DNA of 64,000 nucleotides from Vibrio tritonius. GTDB lineage: Bacteria; Pseudomonadota; Gammaproteobacteria; Enterobacterales; Vibrionaceae. The DNA is taken from the NCBI RefSeq assembly GCF_001547935.1, contig NZ_AP014635.1:1674001-1738000 (forward strand), in the 5' to 3' direction. The notes beneath the pieces are model-generated. The model was not told the DNA's origin. It saw nothing but the letters and a program-made list of their open reading frames with translations, and did not search any database. Made by a program: the position numbers and the translations under genes. Shown in pieces: positions 18,985-58,404 of the stretch (the first letter of the stretch is position 1; each line of letters begins with the position of its first letter).

Positions 18985-19013
18985 CCAAATAACCTCAAGA
19001 TGCTGTGTCAGTG
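18985..19013 (+). repeat. Solo fragment of the MITE-like repeat end
   Basis: CCAAATAACCTCAAGATGC and the following bases match the left terminal repeat of the element at 25710 (CCAAGTAACCTCAAGATGC, then GGTTTCAGCG against TGTGTCAGTG). The rest of the element is absent. Confidence 0.6.
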
Positions 19014-19532: not shown

Positions 19533-20750
19533 ATGCAGCCAAATTCAATACTTAACAAATCGATGCGTTTTCTAACCTCAGTATCTCACGATCTCGATGA
19601 AAGGGTTGCTATTTCTCGTTTGAGCGACCATCTAGCTAAAGCTGATCTTGTATCACTGCTTTGTTACTACACCGAAGATTATGTTCCGGATAAGCTTGTT
19701 AACGAATTGCGAGTCGCTTTCCCTGGCATTCCATTTATTGGCTGTTCTTCCTGCAAAGGTGTTATGACGGAAACAGGTTTTCATTTAGGACCTGTGATCG
19801 CCTTAATGGGGATATATGACAAACACCCATGTGCATACGGCACTGGCCTCATCAATATGGCCTCTTGTGAGGATAAACATCAAATAGCGACAAAAGCAAT
19901 CGAGCAAGCTCTTGCTAGTGCTGATCGTATTGGTGAAGTGCCGAGTTTAGTCGTTCTACATGCGACACCTGGTTACGAAGAATCATTTATCGATGCTATC
20001 GACCAAAAATTTGGAACTCAGGTACCGATTATTGGTGGTAGCGCGGCAGACAATCATATTCAGCAGCAATGGTCTATTATCAGTGACAAAGGTGTCAGTA
20101 ATGATGGCCTAACGATGCAACTTTTCTTTCCCTCTAAACCACTAACCACAGGCTTTAGTGCTGGTTATTCACCAACCGAGTTTGAGGGAACAATTACTAA
20201 ATCGCACAACAGAACGATTTATGAAATAGACGGCAAACCAGCCAAAGATGTCTACCGAAAGTGGATTCAACTGCATGCTGGAGAGAATATTTCTGAGCAA
20301 TATATCTTCGACCATATCGCTCGCTTTCCTATTGGTCGTATTGCAGGAACCATCTATGAACAACCTTATTATAAATTGACTCACCCTCTGCAGCTAACGC
20401 CAGAAGGGGGGTTAGAATTGTTCGCTAATGTTGCGGATAACGAATCAATATGTTTAATGACCGGCTCTTTAGACCAGCTCATCTCTCGAGCGTCTCGCGT
20501 TATAAAAGAAGCAAATACGAAAAACTATCATGAATCTTTGGTCTTAGGCGCAATCATTATCCACTGTGGTGGCTCAATGCTACGCTTAGGAGCAGAAATT
20601 GAGAAAGTATATGCCAAGTTACTTTCTCAAATGAATGGACAACCGTTTATTTGTCCTTTTACTTTTGGCGAACAAGGACGATTCATTTGTGGCGAGAATG
20701 CCCACGGCAATCTGATGATTTCATCAGTAATATTTTATGAATCAGAGTAA
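19533..20750 (+). CDS. nosP: FIST-domain nitric-oxide sensor NosP
   Basis: A 405-residue soluble sensor made of a FIST N domain (about 30-225, with PFIGCSSCKGVM and VPIIGGSAADNH) and a FIST C domain (about 235-390, with FSAGYSPTEFEGTITKSHNRTIYEIDGKPA). In V. cholerae the orthologue next to the hybrid kinase VpsS has been described as a haem-containing nitric-oxide sensor that modulates the kinase. That function is inferred here from the FIST architecture plus the adjacent vpsS-like kinase. The stop is 10 bp before the kinase start, so the pair is one operon. Confidence 0.82.
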   Translation: MQPNSILNKSMRFLTSVSHDLDERVAISRLSDHLAKADLVSLLCYYTEDYVPDKLVNELRVAFPGIPFIGCSSCKGVMTETGFHLGPVIALMGIYDKHPCAYGTGLINMASCEDKHQIATKAIEQALASADRIGEVPSLVVLHATPGYEESFIDAIDQKFGTQVPIIGGSAADNHIQQQWSIISDKGVSNDGLTMQLFFPSKPLTTGFSAGYSPTEFEGTITKSHNRTIYEIDGKPAKDVYRKWIQLHAGENISEQYIFDHIARFPIGRIAGTIYEQPYYKLTHPLQLTPEGGLELFANVADNESICLMTGSLDQLISRASRVIKEANTKNYHESLVLGAIIIHCGGSMLRLGAEIEKVYAKLLSQMNGQPFICPFTFGEQGRFICGENAHGNLMISSVIFYESE

Positions 20751-20760
20751 TTAGCGGGTT

Positions 20761-22494
20761 ATGAACTCAGATAAAGCAGAGCTATTAAATGAAACCTTAC
20801 TTGAGTTAGAGCGCAGTAAGGAACGCGAACAACGCTTAGCAGAAGAAAACCGAGTAATTCTTGCGGCGTTGTCTGCACTCAGTAATGCCGACAATAAGTA
20901 CAAAATATTCGACGAGTTAAAAAAAGTACTGAGTCGCTATATCGAGTTTGATGATTTTATTGTTATCTCCAAGAGCAAACATCATTCCTCTTTCTATACC
21001 TTTTTGACGTCTAACGTGGCGTTTCAAGGTAAGCAATGGCAGCACACCGATAAATTTCAACGTGTATTAGACGGTGAAGGGATCATTTTGTTTGACCCCT
21101 GTGAACAGGATGAATTCCGTCACCTTAGTCGACCATTACAAATTCAAATTGGTACGGCCCTAATGACGGGGATTCGTGCTGAAGCCAGTGATTCAGTACT
21201 GCTGTTGATAGGAAGAAGGAAAGGGCAGTTTAGTCTGGAAACAAAAGCGACCCTGTTACGTTTTCGCCCTCTATTAGAACGTGCCATTAGTGATATCGAA
21301 TATAAAGAAGAATTACAGCAACTGGTTAATATAAAAACCCGTGAGTTGTCGATCGCACAGAGACAAGCCGAGCAAGCTAACCAATCCAAATCGCAATTTT
21401 TGGCCATGATGAGCCATGAACTCCGCACTCCATTGAACGCGGTGTTAGGTTTTATTGATGTGCTTCGCCAAGAAAGTAATCAAGAGCAATGTAAACTGCT
21501 TGAGCAAATGGAAAGCTCTGCAGAGTTATTGTTGGTGATCATTAATGATATTTTGGATTTGACTCGGATTGAGTCTGGGCACTTTATGTTACAGTGTAAC
21601 TGGATTAGTTTGGAGAAAAAACTAAGCCATTCATTGATGTACCATAGCCAGTTAGCTAAAGAAAAGGGCATCGATTTCACCGTGAATCAGTCACTGTGTT
21701 CGTCTTGTCTCTACTGGCTTGATCCAACGCGTTTAACCCAGATTTTGTTTAATGTTGTGGGTAACGCTATTAAGTTTACCAAGCAAGGCGCTGTTAATGT
21801 TGATTTGATTACCGACGAAAGTTGGTTGACTATTGTGGTTAGTGATACGGGTATCGGCATGGACGATGCGCGCATTGAACAACTATTTTCTCCATTTATC
21901 CAAGCTGATAACTCCATTACAAGAACCTATGGTGGTACAGGCCTTGGTTTAACGATTACCAAACATCTTGTTGAGCTAATGAAAGGCAAGATTGAGGTAA
22001 AAAGCCAGCTAAATGTGGGCAGCTCTTTTACAATTCGCTTGCCACTGAGATCTAAGCAAAGCGCAGAAAAAACGGAAGCGGAACCAGAAGTTAAAGCGTC
22101 TCAAAGCGAGATAGCAGAACCAATCCTGTCTAATAACCACATATTGGTTGTTGAAGACACCAAAACAAATCAAATGGTTATTAAACTTATCCTAAATCGT
22201 CTCGGATATAATGTTTCGTTAGCCGATAACGGTCAAGATGCCGTTGATTTGCTAACATCCGATGATCAATTTGACTTGGTTTTTATGGATGTTTCAATGC
22301 CAATTCTCGATGGTATTCAAGCCACTCAGCAGATCAGAAATAAAGGATTAAAGATTCCCATCATTGCCTTAACCGCACACACAATGATGGAAGATAAAAC
22401 TCAATGCATTAACGCAGGTATGGATGACTTCATTATGAAGCCAATCCGCACTAAAGATCTTTCCCATGTGCTCGCCAAATACATAGTTCGCTAA
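20761..22494 (+). CDS. vpsS: Cytoplasmic hybrid sensor kinase VpsS
   Basis: A 577-residue hybrid histidine kinase without membrane segments. It has an N-terminal coiled coil (about 3-40), a GAF-like region (about 45-185), a HisKA domain with the phosphorylated His in MMSHELRTPLNAVLG (about 218-232), and a HATPase with N-box NVVGNAIKFTKQG, G1 DTGIGMD and G2 GGTGLGLTI. A C-terminal receiver carries the phospho-Asp in LVFMDVSMP and Lys in FIMKPI. VpsS of V. cholerae feeds the LuxU-LuxO quorum phosphorelay and promotes biofilm genes, and its partner NosP is the gene just upstream. The lack of membrane segments fits control by a soluble partner. A hairpin and the dif site follow. Confidence 0.85.
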   Translation: MNSDKAELLNETLLELERSKEREQRLAEENRVILAALSALSNADNKYKIFDELKKVLSRYIEFDDFIVISKSKHHSSFYTFLTSNVAFQGKQWQHTDKFQRVLDGEGIILFDPCEQDEFRHLSRPLQIQIGTALMTGIRAEASDSVLLLIGRRKGQFSLETKATLLRFRPLLERAISDIEYKEELQQLVNIKTRELSIAQRQAEQANQSKSQFLAMMSHELRTPLNAVLGFIDVLRQESNQEQCKLLEQMESSAELLLVIINDILDLTRIESGHFMLQCNWISLEKKLSHSLMYHSQLAKEKGIDFTVNQSLCSSCLYWLDPTRLTQILFNVVGNAIKFTKQGAVNVDLITDESWLTIVVSDTGIGMDDARIEQLFSPFIQADNSITRTYGGTGLGLTITKHLVELMKGKIEVKSQLNVGSSFTIRLPLRSKQSAEKTEAEPEVKASQSEIAEPILSNNHILVVEDTKTNQMVIKLILNRLGYNVSLADNGQDAVDLLTSDDQFDLVFMDVSMPILDGIQATQQIRNKGLKIPIIALTAHTMMEDKTQCINAGMDDFIMKPIRTKDLSHVLAKYIVR

Positions 22495-22523: not shown

Positions 22524-22570
22524 CCTAATAATCATATTTTTAATCGAAGATGATAAATATGATTATTAGG
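22524..22570. repeat. Long perfect AT-rich inverted repeat after vpsS
   Basis: 16-bp perfect arms (CCTAATAATCATATTT at 22524-22539 and its complement at 22555-22570) around a 15-base spacer, 30 bp past the vpsS stop. It has no T-run, so it may be an RNA 3'-end stabiliser or a protein site rather than a terminator. Confidence 0.8.
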
Positions 22571-22610
22571 TATTTTATGGTAAATACGATTATGTTCAAT
22601 AAAGACCACT

Positions 22611-22649
22611 AGACCAGCCCAAAGAGGGTTATCTAAGGGCTAGTCTTTG
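22611..22649 (+). terminator. Terminator-like hairpin after vpsS
   Basis: AGACCAGCCC / GGGCTAGTCT stem (9 of 10 pairs) followed by TTTGT, the probable end of the nosP-vpsS transcript. Confidence 0.5.
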
Positions 22650-22663
22650 TCTTCTTATACCTT

Positions 22664-22691
22664 ATTTAACATAATATACATAATACGCACT
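22664..22691 (-). other. dif site (XerCD chromosome-dimer resolution)
   Basis: A 28-bp match to the gammaproteobacterial dif site. On the minus strand it reads the XerC arm AGTGCGTATTA, a 6-bp centre TGTATA and the XerD arm TTATGTTAAAT. E. coli dif has GGTGCGCATAA, TGTATA and TTATGTTAAAT, so 25 of 28 bases agree, including the whole centre and XerD arm. FtsK activates XerD here to resolve chromosome dimers. Its position among five matS sites supports the call. Confidence 0.92.
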
Positions 22692-23985
22692 AAGGTGTTA
22701 GGATTTAACATGGCTTTTTAAGCACTTAAATCGGTTCGATTTTACGTTCATCACACGCAAATCATTCAGTTTAAACATCGTCTTTGCTATCTAACAACAA
22801 CTATTACCATTCACTAGAATAAGTTCTAACATCTCGCTATCGACCAAATCATTATGACGATTACCACAGAACTTACACTGGTAGCTGATGTTCAATTTTG
22901 CAATGGTTAACTAAATAATCTATTCCTTCATATCACAGCAGACTTTAATCATTGATGCTTACTAATGATGATGTTGAACACAATACATGTCAGATCTTAT
23001 ATCGTAATTGCTTGAATGCACGCCATGTATTCACTTTGCCTACCGAATAGCCTTTGCTTGTGATTGAAGTTGAAACTTCATCAGTTAGGAATTTGCAACC
23101 AATGACGGTCTCTGGTGTTTTAATCTCTCTGTAAGAATGTGTTAGTCACTTTCTCGATTGGAGATAATCTCATTGCATACTTCATACAAACGTCAAACAC
23201 TCATTAAAAGTGACACTGTCATGATTTAATCATATTCATTTCATAATCACTGTACTTATGTGTCTTAGTGGCAAACTTACTTTCACAGTTCGTCGCTCGA
23301 TATAAAGTACAATTGCATTGGCAAATATGTTCAACGTCTCCGAGCTGTTCGCTGACTGTGAGGACATGTGGTGATTTACGATGTTGAGCAACCAACACTT
23401 GAATGGTCCGGTGTCGTACTAATAACCCAGATGATCTTGAAAGCTATCTAGATATGAGTGTTAACCAGTAGTTAATTAATCTCCAATAGGTATCACACAT
23501 CGCTTTGTGTGACATTGTCACTTTCATCACGTAAAATAACTAACATCCCAACTTATTGATTAATAGATATTATTTTTCTTTTTAAGCACAAAACACCCTA
23601 CTTAATTAGTTGCATCACAAAAGGCCCGCTTTTAGCACTCTCTGCTGCCATGCTAATCAACCTACCTATAGGTTAAACCTTTCACTTGTTACCTGATATA
23701 TAGGTATTTCCATTAGTAACTAGTGACAGTGGTTGTATTCATGTGATAACCGTTTGCCATTTAACAATATGTCTTTGTATGTGTGGCAAAACGTAGGCTT
23801 TTGCTATGGCCTGCCTATCGTTTCTAGAATTCACTAAAGGCTACCGCACAAAATGGCTAATATTTATTTAGCTAGTAAGCACCTTCCACTAAATCCATAC
23901 AGGTTAAGTAATGATGTAAAGGATAGAAAATCGTGAAGAAGATACGGGGAGAGTTAACCAGCTCTAACCATCCGTTAGTTGCTGG
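22692..23985. pseudogene. Gene-free, decayed tract next to dif
   Basis: About 1.3 kb (with the 170 bp before dif, 1.5 kb) that holds no open frame over 60 codons. On the minus strand short open stretches remain, e.g. around 23090-22975 (PETVIGCKFLTDEVSTS, then GKVNTWRAFKQLRYK) and around 23400-23230 (VLVAQHRKSPHVLTVSEQ, then CNCTLYRATNCESKFATKT). They are interrupted by stops and frameshifts, which suggests one or more broken genes. I cannot name the family. It also contains an exact matS site. Confidence 0.4.
23509..23521. other. matS site, exact match
   Basis: GTGACATTGTCAC, identical to the sites at 2852 and 52747, about 0.8 kb from dif. A one-mismatch version (GTGACACTGTCAT) lies at 23210-23222. 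Confidence 0.88.
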
Positions 23986-23990
23986 AATAA

Positions 23991-24019
23991 AAAAAGAGCC
24001 CAACAATTGGGCCCTTTTT
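23991..24019 (-). terminator. Terminator downstream of the coiled-coil gene
   Basis: GCCCAA-CAA-TTGGGC hairpin with A-run before and T-run after, 37 bp past the end of the minus-strand gene. It could work in both directions. Confidence 0.7.
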
Positions 24020-24055
24020 CAATCACTTAGGCGTAATTAATTGTAAAAGAAAAAA

Positions 24056-25709: not shown

Positions 25710-25975
25710 TATACCCAAGTAACCTCAAGATGCGGTTTCAGCGAGGATGTATTCGCTTATAGGCAAGGCACCGATTTGAATACCTAGTTATTCTACGTAG
25801 AAAATCGGTAACGCAGCATAGGAGCGAATACAACTCGCCCCTTGGGAGCTCATCAACAAGGCCATTTCTGCGCCCAATGACGTTGAAAGGGAATGACCAT
25901 TCCTGCCGTCATTGAGCTTGACCTGTGCTCGTTGATGAAGCTCTGAAGTCTGCATCTTGAGGTCATTTGGGTATA
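25710..25975. mobile_element. MITE-like element with 24-bp terminal inverted repeats
   Basis: A 266-bp non-coding element. Its ends, TATACCCAAGTAACCTCAAG at 25710 and the complement of TATACCCAAATGACCTCAAG ending at 25975, match at 22 of 24 positions. Inside are two nested inverted-repeat blocks. The first is GTATTCGC (25749) with GCGAATAC (25824) enclosing CCGATTT/AAATCGG. The second is GAGCTCATCAAC (25846) with GTTGATGAAGCTC (25931) enclosing CAATGACG/CGTCATTG. It could fold into two long cruciform arms. A solo end occurs at 18985. Ends beginning TA may reflect TA target choice, but I see no clear target duplication beyond that. Confidence 0.75.
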
Positions 25976-26855: not shown

Positions 26856-27305
26856 CTAGTCAGAAAGCAATTTGCTTAAATCTTCTTTTAAGTTGGTAAC
26901 GGTACGGCTTGCTTTTTCACTTCTTGAGGCTTCACTGAGCAAATATTCAATCGCGTCAGATAAGGTGCACCCTAACTCGTTCGCCCTTTGCGATAATTTT
27001 TCCCACACTCGATAATCCAAATCGATCGACTTTTTACGAGTATGAATTTGCTCAGCATTAAAATGACGTTTACGTTTCGCACGAATGGCTTGTTTGAGTT
27101 TGTTCTCTAATTCAGGAGCCATATGTTTATCAATCCACTCAAGCACCATGGTTGGCTCATGTTCAATGGATCTTAGCTGTGTAATTGCTAACTCAATTTC
27201 ACTACGATCAATGTGTTGCGTAATCGCCTCTCCAGCTTTCCACTTATTGACTAAGTATTGCCATTTCCAACCACATTCAAGGTTTTCAAGTTGTTGATAT
27301 TTCAT
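26856..27305 (-). CDS. matP: Macrodomain Ter protein MatP
   Basis: Binds matS sites as a dimer, condenses and delays segregation of the terminus region, and links it to the division machinery. The 149-residue form starting MKYQQLENLECGWKWQYLV matches E. coli MatP at its N-terminus. The highly conserved RAKRKRHFNAEQIHTRKKSIDLDY region is the DNA-binding four-helix/ribbon-helix-helix core, and the C-terminus is a coiled coil. A frame from 27365 would add 20 non-conserved residues. It is divergent from lonH, as in E. coli. A one-mismatch matS lies in its promoter region. Confidence 0.96.
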   Translation of the reverse strand: MKYQQLENLECGWKWQYLVNKWKAGEAITQHIDRSEIELAITQLRSIEHEPTMVLEWIDKHMAPELENKLKQAIRAKRKRHFNAEQIHTRKKSIDLDYRVWEKLSQRANELGCTLSDAIEYLLSEASRSEKASRTVTNLKEDLSKLLSD

Positions 27306-27331
27306 TATTAACAAGTCCGTATCCGTTGATG

Positions 27332-27344
27332 GTGACAGCGTAAC
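27332..27344. other. Degenerate matS-like site upstream of matP
   Basis: GTGACAGCGTAAC differs from the matS consensus at one position (GTAAC for GTCAC). It lies 27 bp before the matP start, between matP and lonH, where MatP binding could feed back on its own gene. Confidence 0.35.
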
Positions 27345-27467
27345 CCAAGGCAGCAATTGTTGCAATTTAAAAGAGAAAAAACTAGAGATAGATCTTATCC
27401 CTTAACGCTATTCGTCAAGCCAATTTTTCTATATAATTTAGCCCCTTTTATTCAGTACATCATTTCA

Positions 27468-58241: not shown

Positions 58242-58268
58242 AGCGACTTCCCCGTGATCGAAGTCGCT
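58242..58268 (+). terminator. First hairpin after rsmF
   Basis: AGCGACTTC / GAAGTCGCT, 9-bp stem, 9-base loop, then ATTTTGG; a probable rsmF terminator. Confidence 0.6.
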
Positions 58269-58386
58269 ATTTTGGCAGCCTGTACTAAACTTGAGTTTAA
58301 GAAACAACGCTTCTTCGTATTAGCGCAGGCTCTTAGGAGCCATTCCCCTAGGCCCTTAACCGGCAAGGTTACGGGCCTCTTTTTTT
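58269..58386 (+). ncRNA. Possible small RNA or structured 3' region
   Basis: Between two plus-strand hairpins lies a 118-bp stretch with several internal complementarities (CAGCCTG/CAGGCTC and GGCTCTTAGGAGCC). It ends in a strong terminator, AGGCCC-TTAACC-...-GGGCCT with a run of seven T (58350-58386). This could be a second rsmF terminator or an independent small RNA. Confidence 0.25.
58350..58386 (+). terminator. Strong terminator upstream of cvfB (convergent)
   Basis: AGGCCC / GGGCCT outer stem plus AACC / GGTT inner pairs, followed by CTTTTTTT. Confidence 0.85.
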
Positions 58387-58404
58387 CTGGGGTATTAGGC
58401 AAAT

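Follow-up and report, generated by a model that had tools for sequence, protein, structure and literature searches.

Chromosomal dif has been described as a self-sufficient 28-bp site; plasmid sites need accessory sequence. Vibrio serves as a model both for dimer resolution in two-chromosome bacteria and for phages that use the Xer machinery.

According to the accessible part of a 2008 study (PMC2533119), FtsK controls the recombination of plasmid-borne V. cholerae dif1 and dif2 in E. coli, and no conserved motif flanks Vibrio dif sites. In the portion available of PMC2731167, dif is likewise placed in no apparent specific genetic environment. CTX-type phages have folded attP1/attP2 sites, that is, two inverted Xer sites, separated by ~90 bp, that base-pair with each other when the DNA is single-stranded (described in PMC5357621 and PMC4246890, in the sections available). 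A precedent for an island bearing a spare is SE-6283, which carries a copy of bcp, the gene it disrupts (PMC9345347, available text).

Here, we describe a conserved hairpin-bearing element beside dif1 of Vibrio tritonius, analyzed within a stretch of 64,000 nucleotides (the window), and refer to this element as the companion. It is apparently undescribed: a literature survey by title and opening of the abstract, with most subscription papers beyond its scope, found no description of it, and the accessible parts of PMC3025954 and PMC4177673 contain nothing on a companion. The locus resembles V. cholerae dif1/dif2 in having a 28-bp site with a XerD arm and a 6-bp centre, one per chromosome, with centres that differ between the chromosomes, a terminus position and KOPS polarity. 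It differs in the companion, which is absent from the published description of the V. cholerae sites as far as the text of PMC2533119, with its statement on flanking motifs, is accessible.

dif1 and the replication terminus

The site dif1 occupies positions 22664–22691 of the window on the minus strand, with the XerD arm at 22664–22674, the central 6 bp at 22675–22680 and the XerC arm at 22681–22691. The plus strand of this segment is ATTTAACATAATATACATAATACGCACT, and the minus strand reads AGTGCGTATTA-TGTATA-TTATGTTAAAT. A sequence-only reading of this DNA had proposed a perfect XerD arm and a TGTATA centre at this place, and both were confirmed in the sequence, as were the three differences of the XerC arm from E. 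coli dif. Within the window, a 24-bp core pattern with ≤3 mismatches gave one match, compared with none in 100 shuffles. The genome scanned comprises 5,221,926 bases in two contigs, C1 (3,434,724) and C2 (1,787,202 by subtraction). With a degenerate Vibrio dif pattern at ≤3 mismatches, the sole match on C1 was dif1 (reversed control, 0), and C2 contained one match, dif2, at 922239–922266. At this threshold, the expectation that the same replicon has no better dif held across the 3.43-Mb C1.

dif1 lies at C1 1,696,664, or 49.4% of its replicon, and dif2 at C2 922,239, or 51.6%. GC skew and KOPS polarity were assessed in the 400 kb around dif1. There, the best change point of the skew fell 563 bp from dif1 and the cumulative maximum 550 bp from it, in line with the anticipated skew switch, and all KOPS (GGGNAGGG) pointed to dif1 (left, 9/9 on the plus strand; right, 4/4 on the minus strand). 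Perfect matS sites were clustered around both dif sites, with 44 genome-wide (21 on C1 and 23 on C2) and 3 for a reversed-pattern control. One of them, at 23509–23521 (C1:1697509–1697521), is 0.8 kb from dif1, and matP, encoding the terminus-organising protein (PF06303, PF17414), is found 4.2 kb away at 26856–27365 on the minus strand. The location of dif1, the GC skew, the polarity of KOPS and the clustering of matS sites together support the earlier claim that dif1 marks the replication terminus.

The 28-bp layout of XerC arm, 6 bp and XerD arm fits a chromosomal dif, with one per replicon. dif1 is one base apart, in the central region, from the V. cholerae chromosome I dif printed in the available part of PMC2731167. 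By itself, dif1 would be ordinary.

The domains encoded upstream bear out the earlier placement of dif1 just after nosP–vpsS, gene names that we take over from that reading. A NosP-like FIST protein (FIST and FIST_C domains) is encoded at 19533–20750 and the upstream neighbour, a VpsS-like hybrid histidine kinase (HisKA, HATPase_c and Response_reg), at 20761–22494, both on the plus strand. A vpsS search in named genomes returned 13 loci, 12 of them from Vibrio. The vpsS-like gene was followed by dif in 11 of the 12 Vibrio loci, and no dif was found in the stretch examined after the V. ruber gene. In the 11 loci with dif, a hairpin is followed by TTTATGGTAAAT and TTATGTTYAAT, ~50–90 bp before dif; the V. 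furnissii copy was read from the stretch and not from the alignment. In V. furnissii, ~1.5 kb separates vpsS from dif, and the companion adjoins dif, not vpsS.

Three further features of the window were observed. On the XerC side of dif1, ~1.36 kb (22692–24055) contains no ORF of ≥60 aa and may be a decayed insertion. An SdsR/RyeB small RNA with an antisense partner is found at 58260–58388. A 24-nt inverted repeat, TATACCCAAGTAACCTCAAGATGC, at 25710–25733 and 25952–25975, with a related copy at 18985, resembles a small repeat element.

Parts and fold of the companion

The companion is a conserved element at 22524–22600, located 63 bp from dif1 on the XerD-arm side, and all of its parts are given here on the plus strand. 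A hairpin at 22524–22570, with arms at 22524–22545 and 22549–22570, was delineated from the inverted repeat, covariation and relatives. It is overlapped by a dif-like core at 22565–22585, which consists of ATTA (22565–22568), the centre GGTATT (22569–22574) and a XerD-type arm, TTATGGTAAAT (22575–22585), and is inverted relative to dif1. A second XerD-like arm, TTATGTTCAAT, at 22590–22600, is able to base-pair, in single-stranded DNA, with the XerD arm of dif. The remaining 63 bp up to dif1 (22601–22663) form a spacer with a purine-strand bias in relatives. In effect, the companion is dif turned round (ATTA-N6-TTATGGTAAAT versus ATTA-N6-TTATGTTAAAT), with a self-complementary stem in place of the outer XerC half; of the XerC arm, only the inner ATTA is conserved and the outer part is not. 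Across 72 copies, the whole two-arm motif varies in length from 25 to 28 nt.

This core invites comparison with the plasmid sites cer and psi. The companion arm TTATGGTAAAT is the XerD arm of the cer core, and in both cases extra sequence lies beside a Xer core. A 30-mer taken as the cer core matched 30/30 in NC_001371 (ColE1) and was present in 646 plasmid records at ≥99%, its right end being TTATGGTAAAT. However, the companion has a centre of 6 bp, with ATTA placed 6 bp before the arm in 41/43 loci, whereas that of cer is 8 bp; in addition, the companion is Xer-like in its own right and sits on the XerD side.

In 62 copies of the stem, we counted 224 both-sided changes against 88.1 ± 7.6 in shuffled data, a value reached in 0/500 shuffles. 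Of the cells, 83.5% pair, a share favoured by the derivation of the structure from the same sequences, and sliding the partner abolished the signal. Two other measures of covariation were less decisive (pairs with a double change, 48/500 shuffles; pair types, 19/500). An initial count, based on 49 selected copies, is consistent with this, with 83.8% paired and 170 double changes compared with 64.6 ± 5.9; it excluded 10 of the 72 copies as atypical or without dif and then 13 of the remaining 62, among them some near-duplicates and six with imperfect stems. When all 72 copies were scored without alignment, the stem score was ≥10 in 53 and <8 in 10, the shuffled mean being 4.9. Among loci chosen by their dif site (see below), the stretch before the arm folded with z < −2 in 35/41, compared with 5/40 at the mirror position. 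The spacer showed little structure (z < −2 in 14/70).

When the dif1 locus was folded as one DNA strand, the second arm paired with the dif XerD arm (z −6.1). With two inverted Xer-like sites, this locus, the only one for which the comparison was drawn, can fold in the manner of the CTX-type attP. Yet the likeness is to the XerC side of dif for the phage sites and to the XerD side for the companion, and the companion is chromosomal and conserved across the family.

A covarying stem would also suit an RNA element, namely a small RNA, or a 3′ leader, that is produced at dif and acts like Rcd of ColE1 cer, a known precedent in the accessible part of PMC5357621. The spacer does favour purines on one strand (L036–L107: AGAGA in 21/70 versus 2 for its complement; GAGAG in 18 versus 2). 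We nevertheless regard such an RNA as improbable: around dif1 there was no Rfam match near the gathering score, promoter-like matches in the region were at chance (7 found, 7.4 expected), and the most conserved part is Xer-arm-like, which would be a DNA signal. A promoter reading of the two arms themselves (TTGAAC-16-TAAAAT, minus strand) was rejected, as the implied spacing varies and the matches are at chance level.

Distribution of the companion

The genome of V. tritonius contains two copies of the exact two-arm motif, one 63 bp away from dif1 and the other 59 bp away from dif2, and a covariance model of the companion recovered the same two sites only. These distances indicate that nothing has been inserted between companion and dif at either site. 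Across the family, the exact motif was present in 88 of 296 genomes at 136 places, and the reversed control gave 0. We examined 72 of these 136 places, accepting dif at ≤5 mismatches; in 70, dif lay 47–120 bp downstream on the opposite strand with its XerD arm facing the companion, the exceptions being L054 and L076.

Loci were also sampled by dif itself. A dif pattern matched 125 places in 58 of 61 genomes, and the 50 examined comprised 30 loci belonging to further genera of the family plus 20 hand-picked ones (17 from the window's genus). Five places at which a companion had already been seen were omitted from the picks, and one locus, L162, is the same as L041 of the motif-chosen set. In this Vibrionaceae sample, the exact arm was found within 250 bp on the XerD side in 41/50 loci, and in 0/50 on the XerC side and 0/50 on the opposite strand. 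Allowing ≤1 mismatch, the arm was present on the XerD side in 43/50, one of which (L161) is another dif, and ATTA-N6 preceded the arm in 41 of these 43. Nine loci lacked the exact arm (L142, L150, L161, L170, L173, L176, L177, L178 and L188). In L176, one base is changed and the hairpin and ATTA-N6 are kept; L173 has a hairpin with a changed arm; and L170 has the island of G012 (see below). Two genomes, G030 and G170, had no match to the companion model.

On the published statements that Vibrio dif sites have no conserved flanking motifs (PMC2533119) and no apparent specific genetic environment (PMC2731167), both taken from the accessible parts of those papers, dif1 could be an ordinary dif whose neighbour is due to chance or shared ancestry. 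We give this reading practically no credence, since it is refuted by the contrast of 41/50 with 0/50 in both controls of the sample chosen by dif and by the stem covariation in 62 copies. The family results contradict the statement on flanking motifs, as it stands in the accessible text, but not the recombination experiment of the same study.

Beyond the family, the covariance model was applied with stricter filters to 148 genomes of the order; apart from those of the window's genus, the genomes with a match were four of a single genus (f12/g24). Three of the four loci examined there have the double arm beside dif, arm 1 being a perfect XerD arm; the fourth (L198) has neither double arm nor dif, and the second match of its genome lies outside the four. 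Among 30 order loci chosen by dif, two (L223 and L224; genus g14) have the exact arm and a hairpin 100 bp from dif. In the other 28, no arm with ≤1 mismatch was present at the corresponding position and orientation; in L227, the XerC side bears an arm with one mismatch. On these results, the companion is limited to part of the order.

We compared the spacers of the two chromosomes in 20 genomes. In 10 of them, the identity was ≥0.76, the 95th percentile between genomes being 0.57; no such likeness within the genome was seen in the other 10, including V. tritonius (hairpin 0.90, spacer 0.43). The central hexamers of the two dif sites differed in 20/20 genomes. The likeness of spacers raises the question of gene conversion next to dif. 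As a separate observation, contig C1 of G270 (3.24 Mb) carries two companions (L098 and L099), each beside a separate dif (C1:1739813 and C1:2510840), an arrangement expected from a fusion of two chromosomes.

An element that adjoins dif on both chromosomes, in the region of clustered matS sites, could instead be a DNA element with a terminus task unrelated to Xer, such as a role where forks meet, the shielding of dif from transcription or the binding of a terminus factor. We consider this quite unlikely, as it leaves the dif-like core ATTA-N6-TTATGGTAAAT and its 6-bp centre unexplained.

Islands at dif and a possible role for the companion

The companion motif also identified 32 viral contigs. 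In 31 of these, dif lies 49–113 bp from the companion, and we infer that these contigs are prophages located at dif together with flanking chromosomal DNA; on these grounds, the possibility that the companion resides inside phage genomes was rejected. The remaining contig (L113) has no dif and, by eye, shows no hairpin but repeated coding-like sequence.

Islands at dif were first noticed via two elements in one contig. They encode a tyrosine recombinase (IntA-like, 484 aa) with a Pfam integrase domain, followed by two large ORFs (516 and 811 aa) without a Pfam match at 1e-5; relatives are found in the same order in G236. The cargo includes type I restriction-modification, MoxR–VWA and OLD-like genes. 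Like SE/GInt elements, the islands have a tyrosine recombinase ahead of two large ORFs, and a 6-bp core (TTTAAC). SE elements are marked by the order intA–tfp–intB–srap at one end, by inverted repeats C/C′ and by strand bias, and the islands may belong to them. They differ in that their target is the dif XerD arm and that what they replace is non-coding; the word dif is absent from the main text of PMC10214605, on strand-biased circularizing integrative elements/GInts.

The island cuts the dif XerD arm between ATTTAAC and ATAA, with clean junctions and TTTAAC shared by both borders. At one junction, the resident companion ends in ATTTAAC and the island begins; at the other, TTTAAC and ATAA come after the island-borne companion and lead into the remainder of dif. 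This layout indicates insertion of the island within the dif XerD arm, which separates dif from its companion. A resident companion cut off on the same contig as the island was found in 11 genomes (G236, G278, G281, G012, G037, G223, G277, G279, G142, G117 and G115) of 17 searched, nearly all chosen for the integrase or for odd double elements. In G117 and G115, the resident copies have weak model scores (E 0.16 and 0.28), with the exact core present; in G218, two copies lie on different contigs. The new companion adjoins the rebuilt dif in 9 of the 11 same-contig cases, and in G012 and G142 it lies ~6 kb from dif, beyond the island core genes.

Islands that carry a companion beside their integrase suggest an alternative, in which the companion is the end of dif-targeting mobile elements and the host copies are old attachment scars refreshed by island traffic. 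In keeping with this, the hairpins of islands, read by eye, can differ strongly from resident ones, and such islands occur in two genera of the sample. However, the integrase was found in only 19 of the 296 family genomes, as against 88 for the exact motif. dif is present in the upstream flank of the integrase in 13 of these 19, and the companion lies between integrase and dif in 10 of the 13, the loci L237, L272 and L279 having no adjacent companion. Integrase relatives also occur in 212 plasmid records. Of three examined, those of the V. harveyi and Klebsiella plasmids (L285 and L286) have a dif-like site ~170 bp upstream and no companion, and the third (L287) has neither. In one genome, G170, the model finds no companion anywhere, and the island at dif is also without one. 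Since relatives of the integrase occur without a companion, the site used by the integrase does not necessarily include one. We consider this alternative unlikely; the island companion behaves like a spare for something that the host has at dif.

By coordinates, G037 adds one more integrase near dif, making 14/19. Together with the 31/32 viral contigs, this supports for relatives the insertion hot spot proposed by the sequence-only reading. On the XerC side, dif sites of the same genome (L239 with L258, and L244 with L257) share a near-identical stretch after dif.

We directly observed conservation, orientation, the spacing range, stem covariation, presence at both dif sites and replacement copies on islands. 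The best reading of the companion, which we put a little short of an even chance, is a host cis-element that would act with the Xer proteins at dif. Under this reading, the companion would be a second, inverted Xer-type site (ATTA-N6-TTATGGTAAAT plus a XerD-like arm) 47–120 bp from dif, with its putative XerC half inside the conserved hairpin. XerD, perhaps with XerC, may bind it, as the arm sequences suggest, and the hairpin may gate the XerC half. Such binding could tune when, or with what, XerCD recombines at dif, possibly by looping to dif, through a folded strand or by holding Xer proteins there, and the host would be under selection to keep the companion.

Several observations bear on how far such a role could extend. 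As V. cholerae dif1 and dif2 recombine on plasmids in E. coli, the basic reaction can probably proceed without the companion, which is likely a modifier rather than a requirement. The variable spacing argues against a rigid complex, and loss in some genomes argues against an essential role.

More broadly, we see an even chance that the dif locus of Vibrionaceae, and of two or more additional groups of the order, has two parts, the known 28-bp site and an inverted, hairpin-bearing Xer-type partner, and that islands cutting between the two carry a replacement because the partner matters to the host. Many relatives keep a companion beside dif, often on both chromosomes, and inserting islands often bring a spare copy. 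The companion is also a sequence handle for finding dif-targeting islands and the Xer insertion hot spot. If the reading is true, a partner beside both dif sites, kept by compensatory changes and resupplied by islands, would be a missed layer of control.
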